Positions 17,365-40,712 of a stretch of 64,000 nt of DNA are shown piece by piece. The stretch is from the NCBI GenBank assembly GCA_003762875.1, contig RIBL01000012.1, positions 1 through 64,000 on the forward strand. Direction: 5' to 3'. This stretch comes from Muribaculaceae bacterium Isolate-110 (HZI) (GTDB lineage: Bacteria > Bacteroidota > Bacteroidia > Bacteroidales > Muribaculaceae). Both the position numbers and the translations under genes were made by a program. The first letter of the stretch is position 1. Every line of letters starts with the position of its first letter. The notes under the pieces are model-generated. The model searched no databases and was not told the origin of the DNA. It worked only from the letters and a program-made list of their open reading frames with translations.

Positions 17365-17375
17365 TTTTCGATGGA

Positions 17376-22531: not shown

Positions 22532-22539
22532 CAAAGTTA
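22532..22539 (-). promoter_or_regulatory. Candidate -7 box for the xylan operon
   Basis: TAACTTTG on the minus strand matches TAnnTTTG exactly and would give a leader of about 195 bases before the GH43 start. No good TTTG is seen 19-20 bases upstream, which is common for promoters that depend on an HTCS activator. Confidence 0.45.
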
Positions 22540-22670
22540 CATCCATCCCTGTTTAAGCGCGTTAAGTATCGTAACATGTAAAATAAAATATCAGTGTAGC
22601 CGTTAATATTTGTAATAATTGTGTTAATAATTGTCTCATTGCCGATGTATAAAGGTGTGTGGGCATATCG

Positions 22671-22718
22671 AAAGCCGGGTGTATGAGTGTCATAGTACAC
22701 TCATACACCCGGCTTTTT
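22671..22718 (-). terminator. Perfect 20-pair terminator hairpin after the HTCS gene
   Basis: The arms 22671-22690 and 22697-22716 (AAAGCCGGGTGTATGAGTGT and its complement) pair perfectly around a 6-base loop. T-runs are present on both strands, longer on the plus side. It lies 24 bases beyond the HTCS stop and separates regulator transcription from the operon. Confidence 0.75.
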
Positions 22719-22742
22719 CACGTAACTTCTCAGTTGAGGCGG

Positions 22743-25700: not shown

Positions 25701-26792
25701 TACGATTATATTGTTGCCCCACACGGCCAATCCACCAAGACCTCCGCAGAAGTCGGGCAGTGAGCATGACAGCGGATGGTACGAGAACGGGATTGCCTCG
25801 CGCGGGATGCATGCGAGTCCGCGGTAGTTGCAGCCTATCCACAGGTCGCCGTCACTGTCGGCGTGGATGCTTCCGAGTTTAGTGTCCTTGAGGCTTATGG
25901 ATGGCAGATATACGTCAGGATAGCGAGCGGCTTCACTTGCTCCTGGCTCTATTTTCCAAAGGCCGTCGGCGGCTGTTGAGTAATATACGTTGCCGTCGGG
26001 AGACTTGGTGAAATTTTTGATGTATTTGCGCCCGTCGTTGTCCGAACAGATGGTGCTGACACTATTGTCATCGGCCGATATGCGAAAAATGTCGTTGACC
26101 GAACTCAGTAATATGTCACCGCTGTCTTCAATCACAATGTCGGTGATGTAGGCGTCAGTGACATTGACCTCCGAGACATTGCCGTTGCGGTTAACGATGG
26201 CGACATTGCCGTTGTTGGTGCCTACATACAAGCGTCCGTCATTGGCTGAGGTCAGACAGTTGAAACCGAGCTCGGCTGTCCGGTTGAGCAGGTATCTCAC
26301 AGCAGTCGGCCGTTCGGCGGTCTCGTCAATAATGTATAGGCCAAGACCTCCGACAATAAAAGTTATGGTGCCGTCGGTCTGTTCGCATATGTCGGCTATA
26401 TAGCCGCTGTAATTGATGGAGGGGAGAGTGATGCATAGAAAAGAGTCGGACTGCGCGTCGTAGAGATTCAGACCGTTTGACGTGGCGGCCCATACGCGTC
26501 CGCGAGAGTCGGCGAAGACATGTATGATGCGGTTGTCGCTGATGGAGCCGGGGTTGTTTTCGTCATGACGGTAATAAAAGTAGTTGTTGCCGTCAAATTT
26601 TATCAGGCCGTTGTCGGTGGCAATCCATAGAAATCCGTCATCGTCCCGGCAGAAATCCTCATATATGCCGATTGTGAAAGCCGGGTCGGAAAACATGCGT
26701 CCGGTCCGGGTCATTACTGCTGTAGCCGTAACACTTGTCAATACCGCATATATACTCAGTAACAGTAGACATATTCTTTTTGTAATATTCAT
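22743..26792 (-). CDS. Hybrid two-component system (HTCS) regulator of the xylan locus
   Basis: 1349-residue one-protein signalling system. A signal/anchor helix (about 5-24) is followed by a periplasmic double beta-propeller sensor of Reg_prop repeats (about 30-650, for example DDGFLWIATDNGLIKFDG) and a Y_Y_Y domain (about 690-760). One transmembrane helix (about 770-790) leads to a HisKA domain with FMDVSHDIRSP, an HATPase domain (NIISNAIKYTQPGG, DTGIGLD), a receiver domain (phospho-Asp in VVCDVKMP) and a C-terminal AraC-type HTH (about 1230-1330, QIAYAVGFTSQTYFSTAFKKFTG). It probably senses xylo-oligosaccharides and activates the operon next to it. Confidence 0.95.
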   Translation of the reverse strand: MNITKRICLLLLSIYAVLTSVTATAVMTRTGRMFSDPAFTIGIYEDFCRDDDGFLWIATDNGLIKFDGNNYFYYRHDENNPGSISDNRIIHVFADSRGRVWAATSNGLNLYDAQSDSFLCITLPSINYSGYIADICEQTDGTITFIVGGLGLYIIDETAERPTAVRYLLNRTAELGFNCLTSANDGRLYVGTNNGNVAIVNRNGNVSEVNVTDAYITDIVIEDSGDILLSSVNDIFRISADDNSVSTICSDNDGRKYIKNFTKSPDGNVYYSTAADGLWKIEPGASEAARYPDVYLPSISLKDTKLGSIHADSDGDLWIGCNYRGLACIPREAIPFSYHPLSCSLPDFCGGLGGLAVWGNNIIVGFANSVAVIDSTGSKLSQVDIPSHGAVTSLTTSGDRLYIGVSNDGIWSISLPDGRELRKVLDYPGKYPSLKTCILPDGDLLTGFHGIGLMRYNPLTGTSKWYESDPEGGRLNNPYFTSMELSADSSAVWIGLYGGISYYDIAADELSPLDQAPFVKGATFALEPQSDGSVMAGTSHGLVHYDPHKFLLRKYTTLDGLTDNDVRAVISDRNGGWWIATKRGLNHMSADGKDITVYYGGYGLKENAFSFGRSTADSDIVLGGDLGITMFCPDSIPVTGFNAKVRVTSMLLNGERINNLTEINGRKVITSTDPLGIRLPYKDNALTLRLSTLDFRDGANVRYMWRLSGYSDDWVTSAPGENVIYLPHLDPGSYSLTLKAVDNNVCSDESHITIDITTPWYMGGVAKIIYLMILLSVIVLSAIVMKKKREEKIYDAKIKFFMDVSHDIRSPITLMLTPLESLLREPFAPAVNEKLRLMHRNGQRILSLINQLLDLRKIEKGGMRLLCRKTDLTAFVGELVDMFKPQAADKKITLTFDHSGQPDEKVWIDRDNLDKILVNIISNAIKYTQPGGEITVSLSTANSLKSGGVSSVIRVTDTGIGLDPRNLDKIFTRFYRGRENHTAGTAGVGIGLDLCRRLTELHHGTISGRNRTDGIRGSEFTVTIPVSESAYAPSELQREHDNEEETTGYASIRNDRNIVGNDLTTPDNHNTISRRRNIAHAKRILIVDDDAELRQYIDHHLEELGYRTVTASDGSQAMKIITEESVDLVVCDVKMPVMDGLTFLRLVRNNINLHHIPVIILSSKSDIADRIEGWDRGADGYLSKPFSINELDSLIDSLIDNRLRLKGKYSGVQDTESSTPVPEIKGYDEALMERIISIINDNIDNPGLNVEMLGQSAGISRVHLHRKLKDLIGMTPSNFIRNTRLKQACILLQKPDVEVTQIAYAVGFTSQTYFSTAFKKFTGFSPSEYRAKYLSGELRSEAGRKESDT

Positions 26793-26987
26793 AGCGATGA
26801 TATTTCACAATTCAAAGATATATCTTTTTGGTCACACATTAAAAATCATGTTTCTGAAAATTATGCGCACGTCAAAAATCTAACGACTATGTTACATTAT
26901 TTAATGTGAGGGGCGGTAACGTGGTGTGGGATTGGTGTATACGTTGGCGGGGTATGTGGGTTGTGGATTGAGATGTGAGGGAGGAAG

Positions 26988-27019
26988 TTGGGCGGTAAGG
27001 TTTTTGTGGATTAATTTTG
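26988..27019 (+). promoter_or_regulatory. Promoter of the tyrosine recombinase gene
   Basis: TTG at 26988-26990, a 21-base spacer and TAATTTTG at 27012-27019. Transcription from near 27025 fits translation from the ATG at 27061. The preceding 26890-26990 region is unusually T/G-rich without being coding on the plus strand. Confidence 0.5.
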
Positions 27020-27060
27020 GCTGTTTTTAACTTGTGTTTTATAATGTACAAAAAGCAGCT

Positions 27061-28299
27061 ATGGCAACGATTAAAGTAAAGTTTCGCCCGTCGGCGGTCG
27101 CAGAGCGCGAGGGTGCAATCTATTATCAGATTATACATGAGAGAAGGGTGAGGCAATTGCTCACGCAATACAGGGTGATGCCTGACGAGTGGGACGGCTG
27201 CCGCATGACGGTGAGGGTGGTTGCTGACAGTGTGCGACGCAGACATGTGATGGCTGTGCGCGAGATGGTGAGATATGATATGGAACGTCTTGTGCGTATA
27301 GTGCGCCGTCTTGATGACGAGGGTCTGGGATATACGGCCGATAATGTGGTCGAGGAGTTCAGACGATATGGCGAGGAGTATTCGCTGTCGAGCTATATGG
27401 AGGATATGATAAGACGGTTGAGGGGCAACGGCAAGATCAGGACGTCGGAGACTTACAGGTCGGCGTTGCTGAGTTTCCGCAAGTTTCTGTGTGAGTCGCA
27501 GGTGGACGGATGTATGGACGGAGGCCGGGATATCATGCTTGACAGTCTTAACAAGGAGGTGATGGAGGCTTATGAGGCATGGCACCGCAACCGCGGGGTG
27601 ATGCCAAATACGATTTCGTTCTATATGCGCATATTGCGTGCGGTGTATAACCGTGCGGTGGAGGCTGAGATTATTGAGAACCGTTATCCGTTCAGGTATG
27701 TCTACACGGGCATTGACAGGACTGTGAAGCGGGCGTTGCCGCTGTCGGTCATCAGACGCATAAAGGGGCTTGACCTGTCGGGGATGCCGGGGCTTGATTA
27801 TGCGCGCGATATGTTTATCATGAGTTTTATACTCCGAGGCATGAGTTTTGTGGATATGGCTTATCTGCGCAAGTGTAATCTTCGCGACGGTTATGTTACT
27901 TACCGACGGCGCAAGACGGGACAATTGTTGACTATAAAGTGGACCCGCGAGATGCAGATAATCCTTGACAAATATAGGGAGAATGCGAGTGATTTTCTGT
28001 TGCCTATTATCCGCAGAGGTGATGTGAATGAGCGTGTGGCTTACCGTAATGCGGGTTATAGCATCAACAGGAGTCTGAAACGTGTCGGAAGAATGGCCGG
28101 GCTGGAGATACCGCTCACACTCTATGTGGCGCGCCACAGTTGGGCGTCGGCAGCCAAGGCCAAGGGGGTGCCTGTCGGGGTAATCAGCGAGGGGATGGGG
28201 CATGACAATGAGGCGACGACGAGGATATATCTGGCGTCGCTTGACACGTCGGCCGTCGACAGGGCCAATGCTCTGATACTCCGAGGTCTGGTGCAATGA
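27061..28299 (+). CDS. Tyrosine recombinase/integrase, lone
   Basis: 412-residue site-specific recombinase of the Bacteroidales phage-integrase type (start MATIKVKFRPS; a GTG at 27034 is an alternative). It has an N-terminal Arm-binding-like region (1-90), a SAM-like core-binding domain (about 110-205) and a catalytic domain with Arg in FILRGMS, Lys in YRRRKTGQ, the H-x-x-R box VARHSWAS, His in EGMGHDN and the nucleophile Tyr in TRIYLASL. All catalytic residues appear present. No other mobile-element gene, excisionase or flanking repeat is evident. It may be a DNA invertase controlling nearby surface loci, or a remnant integrase. Confidence 0.9.
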   Translation: MATIKVKFRPSAVAEREGAIYYQIIHERRVRQLLTQYRVMPDEWDGCRMTVRVVADSVRRRHVMAVREMVRYDMERLVRIVRRLDDEGLGYTADNVVEEFRRYGEEYSLSSYMEDMIRRLRGNGKIRTSETYRSALLSFRKFLCESQVDGCMDGGRDIMLDSLNKEVMEAYEAWHRNRGVMPNTISFYMRILRAVYNRAVEAEIIENRYPFRYVYTGIDRTVKRALPLSVIRRIKGLDLSGMPGLDYARDMFIMSFILRGMSFVDMAYLRKCNLRDGYVTYRRRKTGQLLTIKWTREMQIILDKYRENASDFLLPIIRRGDVNERVAYRNAGYSINRSLKRVGRMAGLEIPLTLYVARHSWASAAKAKGVPVGVISEGMGHDNEATTRIYLASLDTSAVDRANALILRGLVQ

Positions 28300-28304
28300 G
28301 GAAC

Positions 28305-28351
28305 GCGGGGAGACACACATACATACTGAGGCTGTGAGAGTGTCTCCCCGC
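28305..28351 (+). terminator. Hairpin after the recombinase gene
   Basis: GCGGGGAGACAC (28305-28316) and GTGTCTCCCCGC (28340-28351) form a perfect 12-pair stem 5 bases after the recombinase stop. There is no clear T-run, so it may be a factor-dependent terminator or a transcript-stabilising hairpin shared with the convergent gene. Confidence 0.55.
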
Positions 28352-28408
28352 ATTGCAAGGTTGTATTTGAAGGTGTAATATTGTTGTTGCTACTGTTGCT
28401 GGCGGCGA

Positions 28409-29818
28409 TTATTTTTTGAGTTCTTCGAGGATGGTGGAGACGAGGAGGTCGTGGTCGCGGAAGTCGGGCCGAGGGGTGACTGTGCCTTTGCGGTCAATGA
28501 GGAAGTAGTAGGGGATGCCGTCGATGCCGTATCGGTCGTAGATGGCTCTGGACTGGGATTCGGTGAGGCGGTAGTGGTGGCCTTTGATGGAGGGTATCAT
28601 CTTGTAGTAGGCGGGGACGGGCGATGACTCGTCGGCTATGTAGACCCATACGATGTCGGGGTCGGAGAGCAGGTCGGCTTTGAGTGGCTCTGTTTCGGCT
28701 ATGCCGGCTTTGCAAGGGCCGCACCAGGTGTTCCAGCGGTCAATCAATACGACTTTGCCGGGGTGCATGGCGGCGATGGCGTTGATGATTTCGGTGTCCT
28801 CGACGTCAGGAACGGGCGATACCAGTCGGGCGGCTTCGGCGAAGCGTTTTTGGGCTACGGCGTCGATGTTGTCGATAGCCCGGGCGAAGAAGGGGTTGTC
28901 ATAGGCTTTGAGGCGGTCGGTGAGAGTGGAGTCAGGGCGTCCTTCATAGGCAAGGCGTGCAGCCTGACGGTAGGTGGAGAGTGTGCCGAGGAGTGAGCCT
29001 TCCGCTCCGGCAGCGTTCCAGTCGACGTTTCCGAGCGAGGAGGCCACACTGCTGTGTCCGCTCATGAGGATTGTCTCGTCGTCGGGATCGATGGCCGCAA
29101 TGACGGCGGCATAGTTGGCGGGAGACATGTCGACGGCTATGGAGTCAAAATTGAGAGGTTTGTCGTAGCCGTTGAGGGTAAAGTAGTTGCAGCGTCCGGC
29201 AAACTGACGGTCGGAAGCGAGGGTGAGCAGGTCGTTGGTGAGTTCGGCATTCTCGATGACGCGCTGTATGTCGGAGAGCGATGTGTCGGCGTCGATGGCG
29301 GCTTTCTGCTCCTTATATTTTGCGATGATGGCTGCGGTGTAGTCGTCGCCATTCATGTCGTAGCGGAAAAAGTCGGCCGAGAAAATGTTCATGTCATACT
29401 TGTTTTGGTATTTTGACAACTGACGGTTGAATTCGGCAAAACGTCCGTTTGTAACGATGGAGTCGCGATAGATTGTCGCGTCGGTGACTTCGCCCGGGGC
29501 GATGCGTATAGTGCCGTAGCGGTCGTCGGCCGAGGCGTTGAGCAGGCTGAGGGTCATGTCGCCCTGAAGGTCGAAACGCATTGTCACTTTGCCCAAGGGG
29601 TCGAGAGGGGTGGGTATGATTTCACCGAGGTCGTCATAGGTGTAGGTGATGGCTTCGATGTAGCCGTTGCGCAGAGAGTCGTAGTCGGCTATGGTGATGT
29701 TGAGCACGGCCGAGTCGCATGCATATGTCGGTGACAGTGATTGGTCGGAACCGTTGCCTCCTGCACATGATGACAGCAGGAGTGTGGCGGAGGCCAAGGG
29801 GAGGAATTTTGATTTCAT
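28409..29818 (-). CDS. Thioredoxin-like (TlpA-type) lipoprotein, last gene of sigma/FecR operon
   Basis: 469 residues. Lipoprotein signal peptide ending LLLSSC (Cys18). An N-terminal ~310-residue region of beta and helical segments, of the type found in Bacteroidota TlpA/DUF4369 lipoproteins, is followed by a thioredoxin domain (about 340-469) with the redox motif WNTWCGPC and the cis-proline segment YGIDGIPYYFLID. It would act in the periplasm or at the membrane surface as a thiol-disulfide oxidoreductase. It lies 61 bases downstream of a susD gene and resembles the lipoprotein at the head of the same operon in layout, though the sequences differ. Confidence 0.85.
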   Translation of the reverse strand: MKSKFLPLASATLLLSSCAGGNGSDQSLSPTYACDSAVLNITIADYDSLRNGYIEAITYTYDDLGEIIPTPLDPLGKVTMRFDLQGDMTLSLLNASADDRYGTIRIAPGEVTDATIYRDSIVTNGRFAEFNRQLSKYQNKYDMNIFSADFFRYDMNGDDYTAAIIAKYKEQKAAIDADTSLSDIQRVIENAELTNDLLTLASDRQFAGRCNYFTLNGYDKPLNFDSIAVDMSPANYAAVIAAIDPDDETILMSGHSSVASSLGNVDWNAAGAEGSLLGTLSTYRQAARLAYEGRPDSTLTDRLKAYDNPFFARAIDNIDAVAQKRFAEAARLVSPVPDVEDTEIINAIAAMHPGKVVLIDRWNTWCGPCKAGIAETEPLKADLLSDPDIVWVYIADESSPVPAYYKMIPSIKGHHYRLTESQSRAIYDRYGIDGIPYYFLIDRKGTVTPRPDFRDHDLLVSTILEELKK

Positions 29819-29879
29819 AGGTTGGTGAAATTATCGGGCCCGAAGAGCCTGAGTGGAGCTGTCGGGCCCGATATTAAGA

Positions 29880-31277
29880 TTAATAATTCTGGGTAAGCGA
29901 GGGGTTATAGCGTGTGGCGTTGGCCGGGAAGGGGATTACCCACAGGGGGGAGTCGGGCGAGATGGAGTAGGTGCCCTTGTCGCCGAGGTCGCGCGTGATG
30001 GTGGCGCGATAGTCGGGCTCGGTGTTCCAACGCTTGCAGTCGAAGAAGTTGTTGTAGGTGCCATACATCTCCACTTTCTTGGCTTCCTGCATCTTTTTCA
30101 TGGCCTGGGTCTGAGAGAGTCCCGAGCCTTTGAGGGCTGTGTAGCCGTCGATGCGGCGCATCTGCACCATGTCGACATAGTTGAGACCGTCGTCAATCTG
30201 TCCGCCACGGATGGATGTCTCGGCCAGGAGATAATACATGTCCTCGGTGCGTATGCCGTAGTTGTTGAATATGACATTGCTGAAGGCTGTGTATATCATG
30301 CCGCCGGGATAGGCATACTCGACGGCGGCATCTTCCCATGTAGGGAGGCTGTTCCATCCGGTTTCGTATTTGCGTATGAAGTCGTCGGGCGAGAAGAGAG
30401 CGGCAAGTTCCTTGGACATGCAAGTGTAGGTGAGCGACACTCGCGCGCCTCCGCCGGCATAGAGATAGTTGTTGCCGTTGTCCCAGGGGAGCTCCCAAGA
30501 TCCGGTGGTCATTGTGGCGGAGCGGTTTTCGAGATTGTTGTTGTAGCGCAGGGCTGCCGCGGCATAGCGGGCCGCCTCGTCGTAACGTTTCATCTGCATG
30601 AGCACCTTGGCGCGCACGGCGTTGCCGAAGGCTTTGTCGGCACGCATGACGTTTGTGTTGTCGGGGAGCACGGCAATTACATCGTCGGAGCAGTCATCGA
30701 GGATGTTGGCATAGACTTCGGCTATGGTGTTTTTCTCTTTGGTCTCCTCCATGTTGATATAGTTGACGTAGGGCACACCTCCAAGTTGAGCCGCGGTAGC
30801 TTCGTCATACTGTTTGGCATAGATGTTGACGAGCAGATAGTGGAAGTAGGCGCGCTTGACACGGGCCTCGGCAATGATGAGATTTCTCACGGCGTCGCTA
30901 CCTGTGGCATCGGGTGCCTTGTCGGTGATGACGTTGCAATAGTAAATCTGACGGTAGAGAGAGTTGTAGCGAGAGTCGGACTCGGCGATAGTGGCGCGGT
31001 CGATGCTTTCGTCATATGTGACATAGGCATACTCCAGTGTCAGGGGCGAGGCCAGGAGTTCGGACATGTCATACCATGCGGGAAAGCCGTCGTTGCACAC
31101 CATGCCGATGTCGTTGAGCGGGCCGGTGCCGAAGGCGTATTCCTGATTGAGAAGCAGTTCGAGGTCGGCCACATTGTCGAGCGTGGTCATCCCCTTGGGC
31201 GTAATGTCGAGCTTGTCGTCGCACGAGGTCAAGGCCAGGGCGGTGCCGACAAGTGCGGGCAATAATATCTTTTTCAT
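29880..31277 (-). CDS. SusD-family lipoprotein of the sigma/FecR operon
   Basis: 465 residues. The start MKKILLPALVGTALALTSC (lipid Cys19, then DDKLDITPKG) is chosen over an in-frame ATG at 31388 because the latter lies inside the upstream susC gene and lacks a signal peptide. The SusD landmarks AEARVKRAYFHYLLVNIYAKQY, an N-terminal SusD-like fold and a C-terminal RagB/SusD domain are visible. The acidic residues after Cys19 suggest surface exposure. It begins 13 bases after the partner susC. Substrate unknown: no glycosidase is encoded in the operon, so peptides or glycoproteins are as likely as glycans. Confidence 0.9.
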   Translation of the reverse strand: MKKILLPALVGTALALTSCDDKLDITPKGMTTLDNVADLELLLNQEYAFGTGPLNDIGMVCNDGFPAWYDMSELLASPLTLEYAYVTYDESIDRATIAESDSRYNSLYRQIYYCNVITDKAPDATGSDAVRNLIIAEARVKRAYFHYLLVNIYAKQYDEATAAQLGGVPYVNYINMEETKEKNTIAEVYANILDDCSDDVIAVLPDNTNVMRADKAFGNAVRAKVLMQMKRYDEAARYAAAALRYNNNLENRSATMTTGSWELPWDNGNNYLYAGGGARVSLTYTCMSKELAALFSPDDFIRKYETGWNSLPTWEDAAVEYAYPGGMIYTAFSNVIFNNYGIRTEDMYYLLAETSIRGGQIDDGLNYVDMVQMRRIDGYTALKGSGLSQTQAMKKMQEAKKVEMYGTYNNFFDCKRWNTEPDYRATITRDLGDKGTYSISPDSPLWVIPFPANATRYNPSLTQNY

Positions 31278-31290
31278 TGTGATGACGTCA

Positions 31291-34200
31291 TTAGAAGTTG
31301 AGGAAAAGGCTGAAAGTGTACTGTCGCGGAGCTTTGTTGCGGTTGGAGCCGTCGAAGGCGTTGACAGCCTCGGGGTCCTTGCCGGCATTGTTGCGCACCC
31401 ATGTGGCTACGTTGGTCATCTGCACGCGCAGACGGGCTTCGTTGATGCCTATGCGTCGGGTGAGCTGATTGGGGAATGTGTAGCCGACCACGATGTTGCG
31501 GAGCTTGAGATAGTCGGCCGGCACAACGTTGCAGCTTGCATAACGGGTGTAGAGGTCGGCCGAAGCCACGATATTGTCGGAGGCATAGCCGTTGGCGAGG
31601 TAACGGGTTGCGTCGCCCGAACGCCAGTAGTCGAGATAGCTTGAGGGGATGGCGTCGATGAAGGTGGTGATGTTATAGCCGCTTTCGGAGCCTTCGGCAG
31701 TCATGTCGTCGGTGTTGACGCGCATCACGTGGCCGCCGTAGTAGGCAAACATGCCCGAGAGTGAGAAGCCCTTCCATGTCAGTTCGGGGGTGAATGTGCC
31801 TACAAACTTGGGGTCGAGCGAGCCGCTGTAGACGATGTCGTTGACAGTGAACGAGTCGTTGGTCACCGAGGAGTTGTGGGTGTTGCCCTCACGGTCGCGC
31901 CACAGCACGTATTGCAGTCCGTCGACAACCTCCAGTCCGGCATAGTCGTAGGAGAAGAGTCCGCTGATGGGGTAGCCCTTGTGAAGACGTCCGGCCGAGA
32001 GAGCGTCAAAACCGCTTGATGGAGCCTTGTTGACGTATATAATCTTGTTTTTGTTGTATGACAGGTTGAGATAGGCGTTGATGCCGAGCTGATTGCGGTT
32101 GCGGGCCTCGAGGATGTGGCCGTTGAGCTGGAGCTCGACGCCACGGTTGACGCAGATGCCGTTGTTGATGGTCACGGCTGTCACACCGTTGGTCGGGTCG
32201 ACATCGGTGGAGCAGAGCAGGTCGGAGCCACGCTTGTGGTAGTAGTCAAACGAGCCGCTGATGCGGTAGCCGAGGAAGGAGAAGTCGAGACCGGCGTTCC
32301 AAGTCTGTGTTTTCTCCCAACGCAACTGGTCGTTGGGGGGATTCTGGAGAGAGGCGTAGTTGGTGCCGGTGTAGTCGTTGAATGCAATCTTGGCTACGAG
32401 ATATGACGACACGCTCGAGTCGATGTTGCCGGTGAGGCCGTAGGAGAGTCGGGGCTTGAGGGCGTCAATCCAAGTGATGTCGCGGAGGAATGACTCGTTG
32501 TGGGCGTTCCATGACGCACCTACCGACCATAGCGGACGTCCGCGGAACTTGGGGTCGGCACCGAAAAGGTCGGTCTTGTCGAGACGCCATGAGCCGGAGA
32601 GCGAGTAGCGGGAGTCGAAGGTGTAGTTGGCGTTGAAATAGAGCGAATAGAATCGGTGGAGGATGTCGGAGGTGTAGAAATCCTCGCCCGAGGGTGCGCC
32701 TACCATGGAGTAGTCGCTTCCGAGCACGCTTGGCTTGAGATTCTGGTCGGCGAGGGTCTTGAAGTTGACGATGCCGTTCTTGTTGGTCTGAGTCTGGTCG
32801 TCATAACCGAGAAATACCGTGTTGGAGGTCTTGTCGCGTGAGTTGCGATATTCAAATCCGGCCACTGCATCGATGTTGTGCTTGTCAAAGATGGTGCGGC
32901 TGAACTGAGTCTGGGCGCGGAAAGTCCAGTATGCTCCTTCGGATGTGAACTGGTCGAGGCGTCCGCCGTCAGGGATGTAGTGTATGACGGCTTCGCGATA
33001 GGCTGTAATCGGTTCCCAGTTCTCGTCATAGTCTTCGTAGGCTTCCTGTCCGATGCCGGTGTAGAAGTTGTAGAGGTTGCGCATGTCGGCCGACTCGGCC
33101 TCGCGGTAGGTGTTGCGTTTATAGTAGATGTCCTCATACTGGAACATGCCGCTTGCCGTCCATCCGGGCAGAAGTTTGAGAGTGCCCTGAAGATAGGTGC
33201 GAATGTTGGTGCGACGCGAGTCGACCGGATTCATGCCTATTTCAGCCAAGGGGTTGTACCACATGCTCTTGAGGGCATAGTCGGGATTGGACATAGCCGG
33301 GAGTTCGTCATATACGCCCTGGGTCATGTCGGCAAGTGAACCGTCGGAGTTGTACATGGAGCGGATGGGTGAATATTCGTTGATGGTCGGGCGTCCGTAG
33401 TGGCTCTTGCCGCGCTCGCTGATGACGTTGGCACCGACCGCTAAGTCAAACCATTTGGTGACCTTGAGGTCGCCGCGATATTTGAATGTGATGGCCGAGG
33501 AGTTGTTGCCCACCTGACCGAGATTGTCGTGAGTGTAGTTGAGCACGATGCTTGACGAGAGCGATTTGCCCTGTACGCGCAGACCGAGATTGTAGTGTTG
33601 CTGCACTTGAGCGCGCTCGAAGTTGTCGAGATATTCCTGACGGAAGTCATTGGATGCATACTGACCCAGAGTCCTGTCGAGCTCGGCATCGCTGATGTCA
33701 CCCACATAGTTGCCTACGAGAGCGCGGATGGCACTCGCCATGCGAGTGCGGCGTGTGTTGTAGCGTGTGACGAGCGAGTTGAGGGCTGCACCGTCGGGAC
33801 GGCTCTTGATGTAGTCAAAGTTGTATTTTTCGAGTTCGATGATTTCGGCTGCCGTAGCCCAGCCGTAGTTGTCATAGTTGTTTTTCTCGGTCAGAGTGAT
33901 GTCGGTGTTGAAGTCGATTGTCACCTTGTCGGACGAGGCACGCTTGGTGGTGATGACAATCACACCGTTGGCTGCTCGGGCACCGTAGATTGATGCCGCG
34001 GCGGCGTCCTTGAGCACGGTGATGTTTTCGATGTCATAGGGGTTGACGGTCTCTATGCCGCCCTCGATGGGCAGACCGTCGACCACGATGAGGGGCTGAG
34101 TGTTGGCCTGGAATGAGCCGAGGCCTCGGATGGTCATTTTCTGTCCGTCACCATTGTTATAAGTGACGAGTCCGGGCACCTTGCCTTCGAGGCGGTCGGC

Positions 34201-34863
34201 GACCGAGCCGGTGAAACTGCGGTCGATGTCGGCTGCCGAGACGGTCTGATAGGCACCGGTGGCGTTTTCACGCTTGAGATTCTGATAACCGGTGACCACG
34301 ACCTCGTTCATGAGCGTAGGGTCAAGGGTAATGACTACAAAGGGCTGCTTGGGGTCGACCTTGACAGTCTTGGTCTTCATGCCGACGTATGACACCTCGA
34401 TGCGCGGCGACTTGCCTTCGACAAGTATGGAGAACTGACCGTCGATGTCGGTGGCCACTACCGACTTGGTGCCCGGGACGGCCACAGTGGCACCTGCAAG
34501 CACTTCGCCGTTGTCATCAAGCACCTGACCGGAGAAGGTGTTCTTGTACCAGCGTTCCTCTTTGCCTTTGGAGAGCACGATTGTCTTGTCGACCAGCTCG
34601 AAGTCAAGACCGAGCTGGAGAGTGACCACGCGGTTGAGTATCTGCTCGAGACTCATGTCGTGAAAATCGCCGGTGACAGTGCGGTTGTCAAGGCCGGAGA
34701 GGATGCCTTTGTTGTACACAAACTCGTAGCCTGTGGCTTTCTTGATAATCTGGAGGGCCGCTTCGGGCTTCTCGTCGGTGAAAGTCATGTCATAGTTGCG
34801 TGCCAGCAGAGCCATAGGCATGAGCGTCACGGCCACTATGAGAGTGAGTAGTCTGAGTTTCAT
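31291..34863 (-). CDS. SusC-family TonB-dependent transducer with STN domain
   Basis: 1190-residue outer-membrane transporter. Signal peptide (about 1-22), a secretin/TonB N-terminal STN domain (about 24-100, MTFTDEKPEAALQIIKKATG), a CarboxypepD_reg-like domain (about 110-195), the TonB-box sentence MNEVVVTGYQNLKREN, a plug (VLKDAAAASIYGARAANGVI) and a long barrel ending QYTFSLFLNF. An STN domain marks transporters that signal to a FecR anti-sigma factor; a fecR gene lies 48 bases upstream. When the ligand is bound, STN would act on FecR to release the ECF sigma encoded at 37723. Confidence 0.94.
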   Translation of the reverse strand: MKLRLLTLIVAVTLMPMALLARNYDMTFTDEKPEAALQIIKKATGYEFVYNKGILSGLDNRTVTGDFHDMSLEQILNRVVTLQLGLDFELVDKTIVLSKGKEERWYKNTFSGQVLDDNGEVLAGATVAVPGTKSVVATDIDGQFSILVEGKSPRIEVSYVGMKTKTVKVDPKQPFVVITLDPTLMNEVVVTGYQNLKRENATGAYQTVSAADIDRSFTGSVADRLEGKVPGLVTYNNGDGQKMTIRGLGSFQANTQPLIVVDGLPIEGGIETVNPYDIENITVLKDAAAASIYGARAANGVIVITTKRASSDKVTIDFNTDITLTEKNNYDNYGWATAAEIIELEKYNFDYIKSRPDGAALNSLVTRYNTRRTRMASAIRALVGNYVGDISDAELDRTLGQYASNDFRQEYLDNFERAQVQQHYNLGLRVQGKSLSSSIVLNYTHDNLGQVGNNSSAITFKYRGDLKVTKWFDLAVGANVISERGKSHYGRPTINEYSPIRSMYNSDGSLADMTQGVYDELPAMSNPDYALKSMWYNPLAEIGMNPVDSRRTNIRTYLQGTLKLLPGWTASGMFQYEDIYYKRNTYREAESADMRNLYNFYTGIGQEAYEDYDENWEPITAYREAVIHYIPDGGRLDQFTSEGAYWTFRAQTQFSRTIFDKHNIDAVAGFEYRNSRDKTSNTVFLGYDDQTQTNKNGIVNFKTLADQNLKPSVLGSDYSMVGAPSGEDFYTSDILHRFYSLYFNANYTFDSRYSLSGSWRLDKTDLFGADPKFRGRPLWSVGASWNAHNESFLRDITWIDALKPRLSYGLTGNIDSSVSSYLVAKIAFNDYTGTNYASLQNPPNDQLRWEKTQTWNAGLDFSFLGYRISGSFDYYHKRGSDLLCSTDVDPTNGVTAVTINNGICVNRGVELQLNGHILEARNRNQLGINAYLNLSYNKNKIIYVNKAPSSGFDALSAGRLHKGYPISGLFSYDYAGLEVVDGLQYVLWRDREGNTHNSSVTNDSFTVNDIVYSGSLDPKFVGTFTPELTWKGFSLSGMFAYYGGHVMRVNTDDMTAEGSESGYNITTFIDAIPSSYLDYWRSGDATRYLANGYASDNIVASADLYTRYASCNVVPADYLKLRNIVVGYTFPNQLTRRIGINEARLRVQMTNVATWVRNNAGKDPEAVNAFDGSNRNKAPRQYTFSLFLNF

Positions 34864-34911
34864 CGGTCAAAAAATGATAAATTAGAAAAAAAGGTTGATT
34901 ATGATAGATTA

Positions 34912-36063
34912 CTATTGTCGTGAGATTACGACCTTGCCGTCAGTGACGGTAAAACGTATGCCCCCGCACTTCTCGAGGATGGCGATGGCTGTGGTGAAGT
35001 CGGAGTAGCGAGGTATGCTGCCCATAAATTCCTCCTGCTCGAGAGCGGGGTCGGCAAACTCGTAGTCAAAGTCATACCATCGTCCGAGATCCTGCATGAT
35101 GCGGAGAAGAGACTGATTTTCAAAGACAAAACGTCCCTTGCGCCATGAGGTGACCACCTCGGTGTCGACCGGCTTGACATTGACCCTCTCGTCGTCCGTA
35201 GAGAACACAGCCTGATGGCCGGGCGTGAGGAAGAGCTCGCCCGAGCTGCCGCCGATGCGGCTCAGCGATACGGCTCCGTGCTCGAGAGTGGTGTAGACGT
35301 TGTGTTCCTCGGGATAGTTGCGCACGTTGAACGATGTGCCGTAGACCCGTATGATCTGTCCGGCGGTCTCGACGCAGAAGGGGCGCAGGCTGTCGGTGGC
35401 TACAGCAAAGTAGGCCTCGCCATCGACGCGCACGTGGCGCATGTTGTCGCTGAACGAGGGGGGATAGTAGAGGCGTGTGTCGGAGTTGAGCCACACCTCG
35501 GTGCCATCCTCGAGCTGTATCTTGAACTCGCCTCCGCGCGGCACGTTGAGACACAGGTCGCGGAGCTCCTCGGCCGCTCGGTTGCCGCCGGTGATGAACT
35601 CGGAGGCGGAGGTGACAGTGTCGGACGCGCTGAGCAGGACGGTGCGGCCCGAGGCGTCGGAGAGGAGGGCACGGGTTACGCCCGGCTTGATGTCGGCCAC
35701 CGTGACGGTGTCGGTGACAGCCGCGAGCATCGGCGAGCCATCTCCCTCTCCGGCCGACGGACGGGTCAGCAGCAATGAACCGGCCACCAGCACTATGATT
35801 ACGGCTGCGGCCACGCTGACACGGCGCAGACGCAGACGCCATATGATGGCGTTGACCTGACGCTGCATGTCGGCACACGCGCGGCTGCTGTCGACCATCC
35901 GCCACAGGTCAAGCGAGTGTTTCAAGTCTGACGGGGCGGTGAGCCGGTCGAAGAGCTGCCTGTTGGCACTGCTATCGCCGGCCCATTCCGACAGCTCTTG
36001 TTGCTCTTGCGGGGTCAGAGGGGTGGAGAGTCGTTTGATGAGAAGCTGGCTTATACGGTCCAT
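34912..36063 (-). CDS. FecR-family anti-sigma factor
   Basis: 383-residue inner-membrane regulator. The cytoplasmic N-terminus (1-80, LSTPLTPQEQQELSEWAG) binds the ECF sigma; a single transmembrane helix lies at about 83-100 (VAAAVIIVLVAGSLLL). The periplasmic FecR domain (about 175-290) contains GGEFKIQLEDGTEVWLNSDT and VRVDGEAYFAV, and a C-terminal DUF4974-like domain follows (QSLLRIMQDLGRWYDFDYEF). It receives the signal from the STN-bearing SusC encoded downstream. Unlike the usual sigma-fecR order, the sigma gene is divergent and a thioredoxin-like gene stands between them. Confidence 0.94.
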   Translation of the reverse strand: MDRISQLLIKRLSTPLTPQEQQELSEWAGDSSANRQLFDRLTAPSDLKHSLDLWRMVDSSRACADMQRQVNAIIWRLRLRRVSVAAAVIIVLVAGSLLLTRPSAGEGDGSPMLAAVTDTVTVADIKPGVTRALLSDASGRTVLLSASDTVTSASEFITGGNRAAEELRDLCLNVPRGGEFKIQLEDGTEVWLNSDTRLYYPPSFSDNMRHVRVDGEAYFAVATDSLRPFCVETAGQIIRVYGTSFNVRNYPEEHNVYTTLEHGAVSLSRIGGSSGELFLTPGHQAVFSTDDERVNVKPVDTEVVTSWRKGRFVFENQSLLRIMQDLGRWYDFDYEFADPALEQEEFMGSIPRYSDFTTAIAILEKCGGIRFTVTDGKVVISRQ

Positions 36064-36088
36064 TGCTGATTATACATATAATATAATG

Positions 36089-37525
36089 TTATCTTACGGC
36101 TTCGTTGAGCACTTGGTCGATGTTGTCGTCGGAGGGGCGCACGGCATCGTTCTGAATGAAGCGTCCCTTGGCGTCAAGAAGTATGAAGCGGGGGATGCCC
36201 TGTATGCCGAGCGCGCTCATGAAGGCCTTTTGCTCGTCTTCTGAGAGTACATACTGAGGCCATTCGGGCTTGTCGTTGTCGAGCTTTTTGTGCCAGGCGT
36301 CAAGGTCGCTGTCGACCGAGATGGAGATGAACTGCAGCTTGTCGTTGCCCTTGAAACGCTTCACCACCTCTTCAAGATAAGGAATCTCGCGGCAGCAGGG
36401 GCCGCACCAAGTGGCCCAGACGTCAATGTATGTGACTTTGCCAAGCAGATCGGAGAGTTTCACCTGATTGCCTTCAGTGTCGGTGAGGGTAGGGTAGTAG
36501 GGCATCATGTCACCGTTGTTGAGTTCGACGATGCCGTCGACATCCTTGCGGTAACGCTCGATGACGTCGGGATAGTCGGCAGCCACTTTGCTGAATGCGG
36601 CCATGTATTTCTCGGCATCGGCTTTGGAGGGCTTGGATTTCTCAATGAAGAAGAACGGGGCCGACTGGAGAGCGGCGCGGCGGTTGAGAGGCTCCTTGAT
36701 GTTCTCGTCGATGAATTGCAGATTCATGATGAGGCTGTCGACATCGGGATTGGTCCAGTTGTATTCATAAGGGCTGTTGATGTTGATCCATATGCCGGAG
36801 AGATTGGCTTTGACCATCATAGGGTCTGATATGTCGATGCGGTCATACATGGCCTTGTATTCAGGGTCGGCGAGCATGTCGGTGAGCGACATGGCCTTGC
36901 GTTGGTCGCGCAGACGCGAGGCGAGATTTGACATCTTCTGGCTTATGTATTTCAGATCGAAAAGTGTCGTGTAGTATTCCTTCTTGTCTGAGTCGCTGAT
37001 GGCATCGAGGACCGAGAGCACGCGGGTGTTCTCGCTCTCAAGCAACGCGCTGTATTCGTCGGGAGTCTTGGCGTCCTCGGGGTCCATCGAGAAGTAACGC
37101 ATGAAGTCGTAGGCCTGAGAGGCGACATTGACTGCATTGCTGACATCGGCATTGTCGCCTGAGAATGTGGCGGTGCCATATTCGGCATTGTCATCAAGCA
37201 CAAGCGACATCTCGGATGTGGCACCCTTCTCGACATACGCGCCATAGTTGGCACCGTCGATATTGATTTCCACTTCCATGAAATCGACACCCTGAGGCAT
37301 TTGGGGATTGAACACGAAGTCGCCGAGCGAGTCAAGGTCGATTTTGTCATAGTTCATCGACTGTACGTCTCCATAATAAGAATAGCAGATGTAGGCCTGC
37401 GAGTCTTTTCCGAGACCTTCGATGTGGCCTTTCAGAAACGGGCCTTGGCTCTTGCTGCCACATGCCACTGTCATGGCTCCTGCCAGGAGTGCGGTGGCTG
37501 TAATCTTTGCAAACCGTGGATTCAT
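36089..37525 (-). CDS. Thioredoxin-like (TlpA-type) lipoprotein, first gene of sigma/FecR operon
   Basis: 478 residues. Putative lipoprotein signal ending TVAC (Cys22). N-terminal DUF4369-like beta domain (about 25-125), a helical linker (about 130-330), and a TlpA-type thioredoxin domain (about 345-478) with WATWCGPC and the cis-Pro segment LGIQGIPRFILLD. Expected role: a periplasmic thiol-disulfide oxidoreductase. It heads an operon with fecR (25-base gap), STN-susC, susD and a second thioredoxin lipoprotein, so redox activity and SusCD uptake seem to be co-regulated by the divergent ECF sigma. Confidence 0.9.
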   Translation of the reverse strand: MNPRFAKITATALLAGAMTVACGSKSQGPFLKGHIEGLGKDSQAYICYSYYGDVQSMNYDKIDLDSLGDFVFNPQMPQGVDFMEVEINIDGANYGAYVEKGATSEMSLVLDDNAEYGTATFSGDNADVSNAVNVASQAYDFMRYFSMDPEDAKTPDEYSALLESENTRVLSVLDAISDSDKKEYYTTLFDLKYISQKMSNLASRLRDQRKAMSLTDMLADPEYKAMYDRIDISDPMMVKANLSGIWININSPYEYNWTNPDVDSLIMNLQFIDENIKEPLNRRAALQSAPFFFIEKSKPSKADAEKYMAAFSKVAADYPDVIERYRKDVDGIVELNNGDMMPYYPTLTDTEGNQVKLSDLLGKVTYIDVWATWCGPCCREIPYLEEVVKRFKGNDKLQFISISVDSDLDAWHKKLDNDKPEWPQYVLSEDEQKAFMSALGIQGIPRFILLDAKGRFIQNDAVRPSDDNIDQVLNEAVR

Positions 37526-37695
37526 GTGTCCTGTTTTTTGTATTAATTTGGTTAATTGCTGTTGCGTTTAATTAATATTCGCAAAACACTGAGAAAAGTA
37601 TATCAAAAAAATCATTTTTGTGTAGTTTTTTTGTAGAAAAAGTGGTTTTGGGTATATTTTTGTAATTTTTTGTCGGTTTATATCGTTAAAAACAT

Positions 37696-37703
37696 TATTT
37701 TTG
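37696..37703 (+). promoter_or_regulatory. -7 box of the ECF sigma gene
   Basis: TATTTTTG matches TAnnTTTG; an upstream TTTG at 37669-37672 is 23 bases away, longer than usual. The 197-base divergent region is very AT-rich and should also hold the FecI-type promoter of the minus-strand operon, which I could not pinpoint. Confidence 0.45.
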
Positions 37704-37722
37704 CCGATGCAAAACCAATATC

Positions 37723-38307
37723 ATGCACTCAGCCGAGACTATATATCGACGGTTTATCGCGGGAGATATGAGGCCGTTTTACGACCGCTATTACCCGGGA
37801 TTGCTTATGTATGCACGGCGGTTGCTGGGTGCAGAGCTTGAATGGATGGCCGAGGATTGTGTGCAGGACGGTGTGATGGACGCATTTCAGAAGCGGGACA
37901 CTTTTGAGAGCAAGGAGCAGTGGCGGGCGCATATACTCGCATGCATACGCAACAAGGCAGTGTCGGCTCTGAGACGCCTGTCGGCCATGCGCAACTACAC
38001 AGGCCAACTCGACTTGTCGGCCTGTGAGGCCGATGCCCACAGGGCTCTCATAGAGCTTGAGACACTCGACGCTCTCTATGAGGCTATAGAGTCGTTGCCG
38101 GCTGAATATCGCACTTTGCTGAGATTGAGTTTTGAGGAGGGGCTGAAGAATGCCGAGATAGCCCAACGGCTCGGTGTGGCCGAGATTACCGTGAAGAAGC
38201 GCAAGGCGCGCCTGATTGAAATGCTGCGTCAGCGTCTGGGCGGAAATACCGAGATGATACTCCTGTTGCTGGCCATGAATAAGCATATTGTTCTTATGGC
38301 CTGCTGA
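37723..38307 (+). CDS. ECF (FecI-like) RNA polymerase sigma factor
   Basis: 194 residues. Region sigma-2 (about 15-85) includes FYDRYYPGLLMYARRLLG and the core-binding AEDCVQDGVMDAF; region sigma-4 (about 125-180) includes ESLPAEYRTLLRLSFEEGLKN and the HTH NAEIAQRLGVAEITVKKRK. It should direct transcription of the divergent operon beginning at 37525, under control of FecR. A -7 box TATTTTTG lies at 37696-37703, 20 bases before the ATG, so the message has a very short leader. The C-terminal hydrophobic tail (MILLLLAMNKHIVLMAC) is unusual but in frame. Confidence 0.92.
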   Translation: MHSAETIYRRFIAGDMRPFYDRYYPGLLMYARRLLGAELEWMAEDCVQDGVMDAFQKRDTFESKEQWRAHILACIRNKAVSALRRLSAMRNYTGQLDLSACEADAHRALIELETLDALYEAIESLPAEYRTLLRLSFEEGLKNAEIAQRLGVAEITVKKRKARLIEMLRQRLGGNTEMILLLLAMNKHIVLMAC

Positions 38308-38419
38308 GAGGTGGGGGGAGGAGCGTGGAGTTTTTTTGAACTTTTTTATGGATTTTTTTGAACCTGTCGCGAAAATTGAGACATCGCGGCGGTAATTTTG
38401 CATCGTAGACAATGAGAAT

Positions 38420-38500
38420 GGCCCGGTGGTGGAATCGGTCAGACACGCTTTATATTAGATGGAAAGTACATTGCAGGTTCGAATCCTGCCCGGGTCGCCA
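38420..38500 (+). tRNA. Atypical tRNA, Leu-like, anticodon probably UAG
   Basis: Acceptor GGCCCGG pairs with CCGGGTC; discriminator G and an encoded CCA follow. The D arm (GTG-GAATCGGTCAGA-CAC) is Leu-like and the T arm GCAGG-TTCGAAT-CCTGC is perfect. The anticodon arm is poor: the best fold has a 7-position stem with one A-G mismatch and a G-T pair, loop ATTAGAT and anticodon TAG (Leu). The variable region is only about 5 bases, too short for a class II Leu tRNA, and the discriminator is G instead of A. It may be a degenerate tRNA-Leu. A hairpin (AGACTGT/ACAGTCT) follows at about 38511-38536. Confidence 0.6.
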
Positions 38501-38656
38501 AACTTTTTGTGAGACTGTACAGTCACCGATACAGTCTATTGACTTTGATAATCTGCTTGTTAGCGGCAGTCGACAGCCCGCGTGGGGGACAGGGGGAGGA
38601 TGGGCCCGAGGTCCGCTCCGCGCGGATTGCCATACATGTCATCTTATGAAATCTCT

Positions 38657-38687
38657 TTTGCCGAGTATGCCTTTTTATGTAACTTTG
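38657..38687 (+). promoter_or_regulatory. Promoter of the LtaS-like gene
   Basis: TTTG (38657-38660), exactly 19 bases, then TAACTTTG (38680-38687): a textbook Bacteroidota promoter. It excludes in-frame start codons upstream of 38690 and points to the ATG at 38709 or 38727. Confidence 0.75.
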
Positions 38688-38708
38688 CATGAGATAAACA
38701 CATCAATC

Positions 38709-40712
38709 ATGATTCATAAGATAACGATGAACAACAGTCTGCGCACCGCAATGGCCATTGCTGCCAACCTGATTATGGCTTATGTGGCTTACAGTGTGTG
38801 CCGACTTGCGTTTCTGCTTGAAAACTGGGACCAGTATTCGCTTTCGCTGACATGGCAGTCGGCCGTTAAGATTTTTCGCGGCGGCATATGGTTTGACACA
38901 TCCGCCATATGTTATACCAATATTCTGTATATCGTGCTTGCGATGCTGCCGTTTTCGGCACCCGGCCGCAACAGGACATACCGTATGGTCACACGGATGG
39001 CTTATTTCATACCCAACACCGTAGCCGTGGTGCTCAATCTCGGCGACAGCGTGTATTATCCGTTCGGACATCACCGCATCACTACCCGTACATTCAACGA
39101 GTTTGGCAACGAGGACAATATAGGACGCATCTTCGGCATCGAGGTTATCAATCACTGGTATCTCGTGTTGCTGGCCGCTGTCATCATCTGGTGTCTGTGG
39201 CGGTTGTATCGTGAGGCATCGCTGTGTTTCAGACCGCAGACATGGAAGAAGTGGGCTGTCAATATCGTAGCGATAGCGGCAGTGACAGTCGTGGCCATAT
39301 GGGGTATGAGGGGAGCCACGTTCTTCACCTCTACGCGTCCCATCGCCGTGAGCAACGCCCATCAGTTTGCCACACGTCCGGCTGAAGCCAATGTTGTGCT
39401 CAACACACCTTTCTCGCTCATACGCACCATTGGTAAACGTCCGCCTATGGTGCCGGCCTATTTCACTACAGGTCCGGAGCTTGACAGCGTGTACACACCA
39501 CTGCATCATGCGGCTCCCGACTCGGCTATACAGAGGCATAAGAATGTGGTGATACTTATCGTGGAGAGTTTTGCCACCGAGTTTATAGGCGGTCTCAACA
39601 ACAACCGCGCACTTGACGACAGCACTTATCGCGGCTATACGCCATGGATGGATTCGTTTATCCCCAAAACGCTCACTTTCGAGCACACCATAGCCAACAC
39701 CGGAGTGTCCATCGACGCCATGCCGGCCATACTTTCGTCAATCCCCCGCATGAGCTACGGTTTTTTCCTTTCGCCTTATTCGCTCAATCACATAACCAGT
39801 TTTGCCACCGAACTGAAAAACTGGGGATACCGCACGGCGTTTTTCCACGGAGGCACCAATGACTCTATGGGCTTCCAGGCCTTTGCCCGCGGAGCCGGTT
39901 TTGAGGAATATTACGGACTGAACGAGTATTGTGAAGACAGCCGTTTCAATGGCAAGGATGACTTTGACGGCACATGGGCCATATGGGACGAGGAGTTCCT
40001 GCAATATTACGCGCTGAAAATGTCAGAGATGCCTCAGCCGTTTGTGACCGGAGTGTTCACGGCCTCGTCACATCATCCGTTTGCAATCCCCGAGCGTTAC
40101 AAGGATCGCTTCAAGGACGAGGGCATACACCAGTTGCACAAGTGCATACGTTATACCGACTATTCGCTCGGACGTTTTTTTGAGACAGCCTCGCAGCAGC
40201 CATGGTATGACAACACCATCTTTGTGCTCACGGCCGACCATTCGAGCAGCAAGACCACACATAACGAATATAAGACCGAAGCCGGACTCAACCATGTGCC
40301 TATCGTAATCTTCGACCCTTCGGGCGAGATGCCGCGCGGTGTGCGCGAGGGGTTGATGCAGCAGCTCGACATACTCCCCACCATACTCGGATGGCTGGGC
40401 TATGACCGCGACTACATAGCGTTTGGCAACGACGCGCTCGCCACACCAGCCGAGGACCGCTGGGCTTTCAACTGGATATTCACTCCGCAGATCTACATGG
40501 ACCGCTATTTTCTCCAGACCGATGCCGACTGCAATGTGACCGGCATGTATGACTATATAGACGACATACTCATGACCACCGATGTCAAGGACGCACATCC
40601 GGCCGAACGCGATGCCATGCAGCGCAAAATTAAGGGACTCATGCAGAGCTATCTCGAACGCATGGAGGCCGACAGCGTGTGGGTGCGTCAGTCGGCGGCC
40701 GACGGCTTGTGA
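38709..40712 (+). CDS. LtaS-type sulfatase-fold membrane phosphotransferase
   Basis: 667 residues (start ATG 38709; 38727 is a close alternative). The N-terminal ~200 residues contain about five membrane helices. The periplasmic sulfatase/alkaline-phosphatase domain (about 270-600) shows NVVILIVESFATEF (first metal ligand Glu), the nucleophile region TGVSIDAMPAILSSIP and TADHSSS with a following LNHVPIVIF. Such proteins are annotated LTA synthase family. In Gram-negative Bacteroidota they more probably transfer a phosphoglycerol or phosphoethanolamine group to an envelope glycan or lipid. The stop overlaps the 3' end of the convergent EamA gene by 25 bases. Confidence 0.85.
   Translation: MIHKITMNNSLRTAMAIAANLIMAYVAYSVCRLAFLLENWDQYSLSLTWQSAVKIFRGGIWFDTSAICYTNILYIVLAMLPFSAPGRNRTYRMVTRMAYFIPNTVAVVLNLGDSVYYPFGHHRITTRTFNEFGNEDNIGRIFGIEVINHWYLVLLAAVIIWCLWRLYREASLCFRPQTWKKWAVNIVAIAAVTVVAIWGMRGATFFTSTRPIAVSNAHQFATRPAEANVVLNTPFSLIRTIGKRPPMVPAYFTTGPELDSVYTPLHHAAPDSAIQRHKNVVILIVESFATEFIGGLNNNRALDDSTYRGYTPWMDSFIPKTLTFEHTIANTGVSIDAMPAILSSIPRMSYGFFLSPYSLNHITSFATELKNWGYRTAFFHGGTNDSMGFQAFARGAGFEEYYGLNEYCEDSRFNGKDDFDGTWAIWDEEFLQYYALKMSEMPQPFVTGVFTASSHHPFAIPERYKDRFKDEGIHQLHKCIRYTDYSLGRFFETASQQPWYDNTIFVLTADHSSSKTTHNEYKTEAGLNHVPIVIFDPSGEMPRGVREGLMQQLDILPTILGWLGYDRDYIAFGNDALATPAEDRWAFNWIFTPQIYMDRYFLQTDADCNVTGMYDYIDDILMTTDVKDAHPAERDAMQRKIKGLMQSYLERMEADSVWVRQSAADGL

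Follow-up and report, generated by a model that had tools for sequence, protein, structure and literature searches.

The locus at 28409–38307

Within a 64,000-nucleotide stretch of contig RIBL01000012.1 from Muribaculaceae bacterium Isolate-110 (HZI), referred to as the window, we analysed a locus for SusC/SusD (SusCD) import in which the transporter and its lipoprotein partner are encoded together with an extracytoplasmic function (ECF) sigma factor, a FecR-type anti-sigma and two exported thioredoxins, here named Trx1 and Trx2 (Table 1). An earlier sequence-only reading of the window had given the order as thioredoxin lipoprotein, fecR, STN-susC, susD, thioredoxin lipoprotein with the sigma gene divergent, and all six genes were found where it had placed them, the STN match being a weak one (21.4 bits for PF07660, under the 28.4 cut-off).

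Table 1. Features of the SusCD-thioredoxin locus, in window coordinates
Feature	Position	Strand	Evidence and remarks
ECF sigma factor gene	37723–38307	+	Divergent; Pfam Sigma70_r2 and r4_2 above cut-off
Predicted ECF promoter of Trx1-fecR-susC-susD-Trx2	37577–37602	-	TATACTTTT-N11-GCGAAT
Trx1, exported TlpA/ResA-like thioredoxin lipoprotein	36089–37525	-	Pfam Redoxin and Thioredoxin_8 above cut-off; lipobox
FecR-type anti-sigma	34912–36063	-	Pfam FecR and FecR_C above cut-off
SusC/RagA TonB-dependent transporter, STN-like N-terminal domain	31291–34863	-	TIGR04056
SusD/RagB lipoprotein	29880–31277	-	Pfam SusD-like_3 and SusD_RagB; DDK acidic residues after lipid Cys
Trx2, second TlpA-like thioredoxin lipoprotein	28409–29818	-	Pfam Redoxin and Thioredoxin_8 above cut-off; WCGPC
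Inverted repeat between Trx2 and convergent integrase	28302–28354	.	Arms 22 nt, 82% complementary, 9 nt apart; possible terminator

The ECF sigma gene is paired with the FecR-type gene, both with Pfam matches above cut-off; the top NCBIfam match of the sigma factor is TIGR02985 (96.7 bits, below the 126.4 cut-off), and hydropathy gives FecR a single hydrophobic stretch (residues 82–100). The transporter is a SusC/RagA family barrel by its score against TIGR04056 (565 bits, cut-off 368.25), and the adjacent SusD exceeds the Pfam cut-offs for PF14322 (66.3 bits) and PF07980 (31.9 bits). By alignment with relatives SusD begins near 31277 and so carries a lipoprotein signal, versus a start at 31388 from the open reading frame (ORF) finder. 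WCGPC and a lipobox are present in both thioredoxins, and the gaps from Trx1 through fecR, susC and susD to Trx2 measure 25, 48, 13 and 61 nt.

No glycosidase, protease or sulfatase gene is among the six genes of 28409–38307, as the sequence-only reading had held, and the GH43 and sulfatase-fold genes of the window lie outside the operon. The locus thus lacks the carbohydrate-active enzymes by which a polysaccharide utilization locus (PUL) is recognized. ECF sigma homologues in this bacterial family are reported, in the available text of PMC4936053, not to be located near PULs; the window's own genome holds seven ECF/FecR-SusCD loci, PUL status having been examined for the window locus only.

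Thioredoxin genes track one SusCD clade

A species-genome collection scanned with a SusD alignment, by means of two short peptide patterns, yielded 58 loci. The five-gene order for which the sequence-only reading had proposed a search (sigma / Trx-fecR-susC-susD-Trx) was found, besides the window, in five other species of Muribaculaceae, Prevotella and Alistipes (L034, L035, L044, L047 and L070), and in L036 and L038 there are two thioredoxins, both upstream. Between sigma and fecR of L045, a truncated ORF (2341–2760) that by eye resembles the Trx1 N-terminus may be what is left of an upstream thioredoxin.

SusC trees were built in quick mode. The first, of 103 rows, derives from 118 SusC genes minus those shorter than 1000 aa; duplicate loci were dropped (L001, L002, L021, L126 and L139, and from the 31-row-clade tree described below L167, L170 and L174), and the near-identical L175 and L176 were counted separately. 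The commoner arrangement in the 103-row tree is a single thioredoxin downstream of susD. The window falls in an 18-row clade (support 100) with a 24-row clade as sister, and a thioredoxin gene stands in the operon run of 37 of these 42 rows versus 9 of the remaining 61. Three of the five rows lacking one are cut by a contig end on at least one side (L037, L041 and L083), and the other two carry a DsbD_N protein instead (L057 and L068).

A second sample, drawn by SusC similarity, covered 397 genomes of the family, with the clade present at E 1e-200 or better in 19. After 17 new SusC genes had been added, and with 10 of the 24 sister rows used, the window was placed in a 31-row clade (support 95) with a thioredoxin upstream in 13 rows, on both sides in 10, downstream in six and absent from two. 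The operon run thus includes a thioredoxin gene in 29 of 31 rows; the exceptions are L037, where contig ends fall on both sides, and L041, where one falls upstream, and in one of the ten two-sided rows (L177) the second thioredoxin lies four genes further on.

A control sample was taken regardless of thioredoxins by a FecR_C search of 31 genomes of the order, which gave 86 places outside the window's own genome; 60 regions, mostly top-scoring, were fetched from 18 genomes of other families. Not one of the 41 FecR-SusC runs of other families, some of them cut by contig ends, had a thioredoxin in the run, and in two control regions (L111 and L136) a thioredoxin gene is present outside it. The thioredoxin trait therefore tracks the SusCD clade and not FecR operons generally. 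This clade-wide linkage is well supported, and the outcome that would have spoken against the sequence-only reading, thioredoxin genes not conserved with the SusCD clade, did not arise.

The window's own genome taken by itself had fitted a simpler rule, that FecR-SusCD loci always carry a thioredoxin: all seven FecR loci above cut-off have one after susD, with an upstream one as well only at the window locus. The wider sample ruled this out. Three of nine SusC genes without FecR examined in the same genome also have a downstream thioredoxin; its SusC loci were sampled in part, several having been picked for a thioredoxin or FecR match. One paralogous sigma/fecR-susC-susD-Trx locus of this genome (L013 10237–11640, contig C57) has susD split into two reading frames.

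Regulator replacement and a predicted shared promoter

Nested in the 31-row clade are nine loci in which a gene for a 468–604 aa protein replaces sigma/fecR (L040, L042, L169, L171, L172 and L175–L178). Pfam detected TPR and AraC-type HTH domains in the products of L042, L172 and L175, the other six being assigned by place and size. We interpret these putative TPR-AraC genes as a regulator swap within one SusCD clade. A Trx1-type gene is kept upstream of susC in seven of the nine putative AraC-regulated loci and some thioredoxin in all nine; the thioredoxin therefore goes with the transporter and not with the sigma/anti-sigma pair.

A promoter motif was read by eye in 15 loci and then counted in those same 15, from which L039, lacking an intergenic stretch, is absent. 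ATAC-N11..15-GCG precedes the first operon gene in 9 of the 15, with 0.24 expected from dinucleotide shuffles; the count does not test the motif independently, these being the loci that supplied it. A stricter form has a single match on both strands of the 64 kb. The core pattern missed L044, L045, L013, L092, L093 and L095; in some of these the -35 element is alike by eye and the -10 element or spacing has diverged, and the fecR start of L013 is unsure. Since the motif lies in the sigma-Trx1 intergenic region, Trx1 is predicted to be part of the sigma-dependent operon, and Trx1-fecR-susC-susD-Trx2 is predicted to form one operon with one such promoter. Separate regulation of the thioredoxins, which the sequence-only reading had named as evidence against itself, is not indicated. 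In L163–L166, L168 and L043, a gene for a protein of ~450–490 aa with a signal-peptide-like start stands on sigma's strand between sigma and Trx1; two of the products were scanned and gave no Pfam family above cut-off.

Separate histories of Trx1 and Trx2

The sequence-only reading had described two different TlpA-type proteins with WCGPC. Both are present, and the tree adds a correction, namely that they have different histories. In the thioredoxin tree (75 rows with long branches and an unsure deeper order; L051, with two thioredoxin regions, was left out) the Trx1 clade unites 13 of 17 upstream genes with one downstream gene (L013). The 13 downstream thioredoxins of the 18-row clade require at least five changes of place on well-supported branches and include several lineages: one in Prevotella, one in Alistipes/Odoribacter/Butyricimonas, and one of the window and two relatives, with L094 apart. 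Trx2 and its two relatives group with stand-alone Muribaculaceae thioredoxins (support 100/100). Trx2-lineage thioredoxins, mostly ~620–650 aa long, also occur away from SusCD in other Muribaculaceae (L003–L012 and L020, seven of them in the tree).

Thioredoxin structure and location

Trx1 carries WCGPCC, a cis-Pro in GIPRF and, by alignment, a Glu after the CxxC. Its AlphaFold 2 (AF2) model (pLDDT 89.5) comprises a beta-sandwich (31–123), a helical part (126–330) and then the thioredoxin domain, which has the thioredoxin fold with CxxC and cis-Pro in place and superposes (332–478) on B. vulgatus 4ka0 with Z 22.7 and a root-mean-square deviation of 1.6 over 142 residues. The top ResA, TlpA and CcmG rows of the fold search reached Z 17.3, 16.7 and 15.8; this search effectively covered the thioredoxin domain, a single row (4yod) extending into the helical part (231–477). 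Trx1 stays under the NCBIfam cut-offs for ResA (62 versus 170 bits) and TlpA (55.4 versus 230). The Trx2 model is weak (pLDDT 68.9). Pfam detected DUF4369 in neither protein; the domain occurs in 2 of the 18 sequences that make up the Trx1 alignment.

Acidic residues at +2 to +6 after the lipid Cys are the surface-export pattern in Bacteroidota. A lipobox pattern, which missed or misplaced some sites, matched 29 of 41 SusD proteins, 27 of the 29 with at least two acidic residues at these positions; it also matched 29 of the 60 thioredoxins within six genes (7 upstream, 22 downstream), only two of which have the acidic pattern. Read by eye, the signal peptide is of the plain kind in 8 of the 17 upstream thioredoxins. 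Both window proteins have a lipobox and are in this respect the lipoproteins they had been called, but because several relatives have plain secretion signals and no lipobox the lipoprotein form is not essential and the periplasm is the likely site of Trx1 and Trx2.

DsbD-family genes and possible cargo

DsbD-family genes occur in eight related operons. Six loci of the sister clade (L057, L065, L068, L075, L084 and L093) encode proteins of 641–668 aa with a C-terminal DsbD_N domain above cut-off, which adjoin the thioredoxins or replace them; these proteins have a VGGS-containing N-terminus with no other Pfam match at the thresholds used. A full DsbD lies in the operon run of L182 and, in L070, directly after the downstream thioredoxin. 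The window's own genome has one DsbD and two DsbD_N matches: that DsbD and the L093 gene, itself in a SusCD-thioredoxin operon. Two separate thiol-redox families thus adjoin the same transporter clade, which is in our view the best evidence for disulfide chemistry in this clade. It lends independent support to the link with disulfide chemistry in the earlier suggestion of uptake linked to disulfide reduction, in which the reduction step itself is inferred.

As to the cargo, our guess is disulfide-containing peptides. In some relatives a peptidase gene follows susD or the thioredoxins (Met-zincin in L072, S9 in L082, M13 in L056; one protein of each kind was scanned), which hints at peptide cargo. 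Mucin and redox-sensitive glycoproteins, which the sequence-only reading had also considered, were pointed to by no result. The closest solved SusC/SusD chains are 8ypt/8ypu, with RagA among the nine solved chains matched; a literature search for 8ypt/8ypu returned no paper naming either, and the nearest structures do not settle the cargo.

Comparison with known systems

The locus is a variant of ECF/FecR SusCD uptake, marked by clade-wide linkage to exported thioredoxins. Like SusCD/RagAB complexes it encodes the pair of SusC/RagA barrel and SusD/RagB lid, but unlike them it has dedicated thioredoxins and no glycosidase or peptidase. With other ECF/FecR SusCD loci of Bacteroidota it shares the ECF sigma gene, a FecR with FecR_C and a SusC with an STN-like domain, here a sub-cut-off match, whereas the sampled runs of other families are without a thioredoxin gene. 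TlpA/ResA/CcmG oxidoreductases resemble Trx1 in the fold of the thioredoxin domain, the CxxC, the cis-Pro and the Glu after the CxxC; they differ from it in that Trx1 has a long N-terminal extension, sub-cut-off NCBIfam scores and a gene tied to an outer-membrane importer.

Two published systems are also similar in part. The Campylobacter jejuni fetMP-fetABCDEF cluster is likewise a nutrient-uptake cluster with two thioredoxins, but it serves iron transport with other components, and its abstract names no SusCD or ECF/FecR (PMC10783030). A Muribaculaceae DUF4369-thioredoxin lipoprotein, described in the available text of a 2026 preprint (PMC13404670), comes from the same family and lies near TonB-dependent transporters; it differs in having DUF4369, absent from Trx1 and Trx2, and that text contains no operon or clade analysis. 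The sequence-only reading knew of no described system with exactly this layout, and our search of open-licence PubMed Central text agrees: among the matches listed, no title or abstract start describes it, nor do the available portions of PMC12596196, PMC10434189 and PMC9723704. The layout is not unique in nature, however, since it recurs in the five species above.

A proposed reductive route of import

An importer encoded with two exported thioredoxins suggests that the imported cargo has its disulfides broken on arrival. We see an even chance that the locus encodes a substrate-inducible SusCD importer with thioredoxins of its own that reduce the cargo in the periplasm and draw their electrons from DsbD. 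In this reading, cargo bound by SusD/SusC would signal via the STN domain to FecR and free the ECF sigma factor, which would transcribe Trx1-fecR-susC-susD-Trx2 from the single promoter. Surface SusD and SusC would then import the disulfide-carrying cargo, most probably peptides, and Trx1 and Trx2, tethered at the periplasmic face, would reduce it with electrons from the DsbD of the genome. More tentatively, the locus may belong to a Bacteroidota-wide class of reductive importers, in which a SusCD clade is coupled to dedicated periplasmic thioredoxins (at some loci with their own DsbD), disulfide breaking is part of uptake, and different lineages have filled the second thioredoxin slot independently.

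SusCD systems have been studied mostly as glycan importers, and to our knowledge no reductive chemical step is known for them. A SusCD clade tied to thioredoxins, in an operon without glycan enzymes, points to a different cargo and a chemical step of this kind. Gut Bacteroidota have many TlpA-like thioredoxins, and the linkage suggests what some of them may be used for.

Several points weigh against reduction of imported peptides. In the window's own clade the operon runs, their neighbours scanned in part, showed no peptidase, and peptide transporters do not stand out among the nearest solved SusC/SusD chains. Two near relatives that fall immediately beyond the 31-row clade, L180 and L181, carry SusCD but no thioredoxin, with no contig end at that point; the next wider clade, which includes them, has a thioredoxin in 30 of 34 rows. 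Trx2 has Gly where nearly all rows of the Trx1 alignment have Glu, so the two thioredoxins may differ in role. The periplasmic assignment rests on signal-peptide rules from other Bacteroidota and an imperfect lipobox pattern, and conserved thioredoxin partners could also work in the repair of proteins or the maturation of cargo. Oxidation, moreover, is within the range of thioredoxin-fold enzymes: according to the abstract of PMC10783030, FetEF promoted oxidation in extracts.

The main rival on cargo, by analogy with the fet cluster and the Muribaculaceae preprint, is iron or haem acquisition, in which SusCD would bring in a complex of iron or haem, with the thioredoxins aiding its release or handling. 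FecR/ECF control is classical for ferric citrate, which counts towards this explanation. So does the Campylobacter iron-uptake cluster, with FetE and FetF described as redundant thioredoxins in the abstract of PMC10783030, and so does the proposal, in the available text of PMC13404670, of a role in iron and reactive oxygen species for Muribaculaceae thioredoxins, one near TonB-dependent transporters. The 41 other FecR-SusC runs are likewise ECF-controlled, however, and lack thioredoxins, and the ORFs read near the loci showed no gene for handling haem or iron, a minority of neighbours having been scanned against a library. We regard iron or haem as a rather unlikely cargo.

Envelope thiol repair, in which the thioredoxins would hold Cys residues in SusD or in further envelope proteins in the reduced state and leave cargo untouched, is in our view unlikely. 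SusD does have extra conserved Cys residues; in the numbering that counts from the 31388 ORF start these are C98 in 14, C233 in 17 and C451 in 12 of 18 clade members. Where the window SusD has M441, 10 of 18 have Cys; where it has T391, Cys is found in 11 of 18 and, within the sister clade, in 18 of 23. In that sister clade, though, C98, C233 and C451 recur in only 2, 0 and 1 of 23 although thioredoxins are mostly present, and at the sole Cys position common to both clades the window has another residue. In SusC a single position is Cys in 12 of 18 (the window has Thr there), and in FecR none reaches half. The predicted orientation of SusD is outward, on the side opposite to periplasmic thioredoxins.

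Most of the ~330 residues before the Trx1 thioredoxin domain are confidently modelled, and this beta-sandwich/helical part might itself be the working domain for cargo binding or chaperoning, with the thioredoxin domain folding or maturing an imported or assembled protein. This seems improbable to us, as the N-terminal part diverges and most invariant columns are in the CGPC and cis-Pro regions. That the thioredoxins are passengers, common in these genomes (the window's own yields 21 Thioredoxin_8 matches with E no higher than 0.001) and here by chance or drift, is very improbable given the clade-specific linkage (Fisher p 1.8e-18, overstated since rows are related by descent), its survival of regulator replacement and the 0 of 41 FecR-seeded runs of other families with a thioredoxin.

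Neighbouring features

A lone tyrosine recombinase gene (27034–28299, + strand) is convergent with Trx2. In L006, a recombinase 57.6% identical to it (8487–9707) is likewise convergent to a Trx2-like gene; with these two cases, the recombinase-thioredoxin pair may move together. Two further arrangements involving the integrase were considered and rejected. For an island inserted at tRNA-Leu, the T-arm sequence recurs (plus strand) only in tRNA-Gln, and a repeat search of 26000–40000 gave no flanking pair. For an integrase-driven inversion, one distant inverted pair alone was detected (19 nt, 89%), with its arms within the integrase and fecR genes and not at the operon's flanks.

Past the integrase and separate from the operon is a PUL-like neighbour (10801–26792) with two SusCD pairs, a GH43 gene and a hybrid two-component regulator. 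Also outside the operon, downstream of the sigma gene, a sulfatase-domain gene (38412–40712) overlaps or follows tRNA-Leu; its real start is probably later than called, and the product is presumably of the LTA-synthase type.

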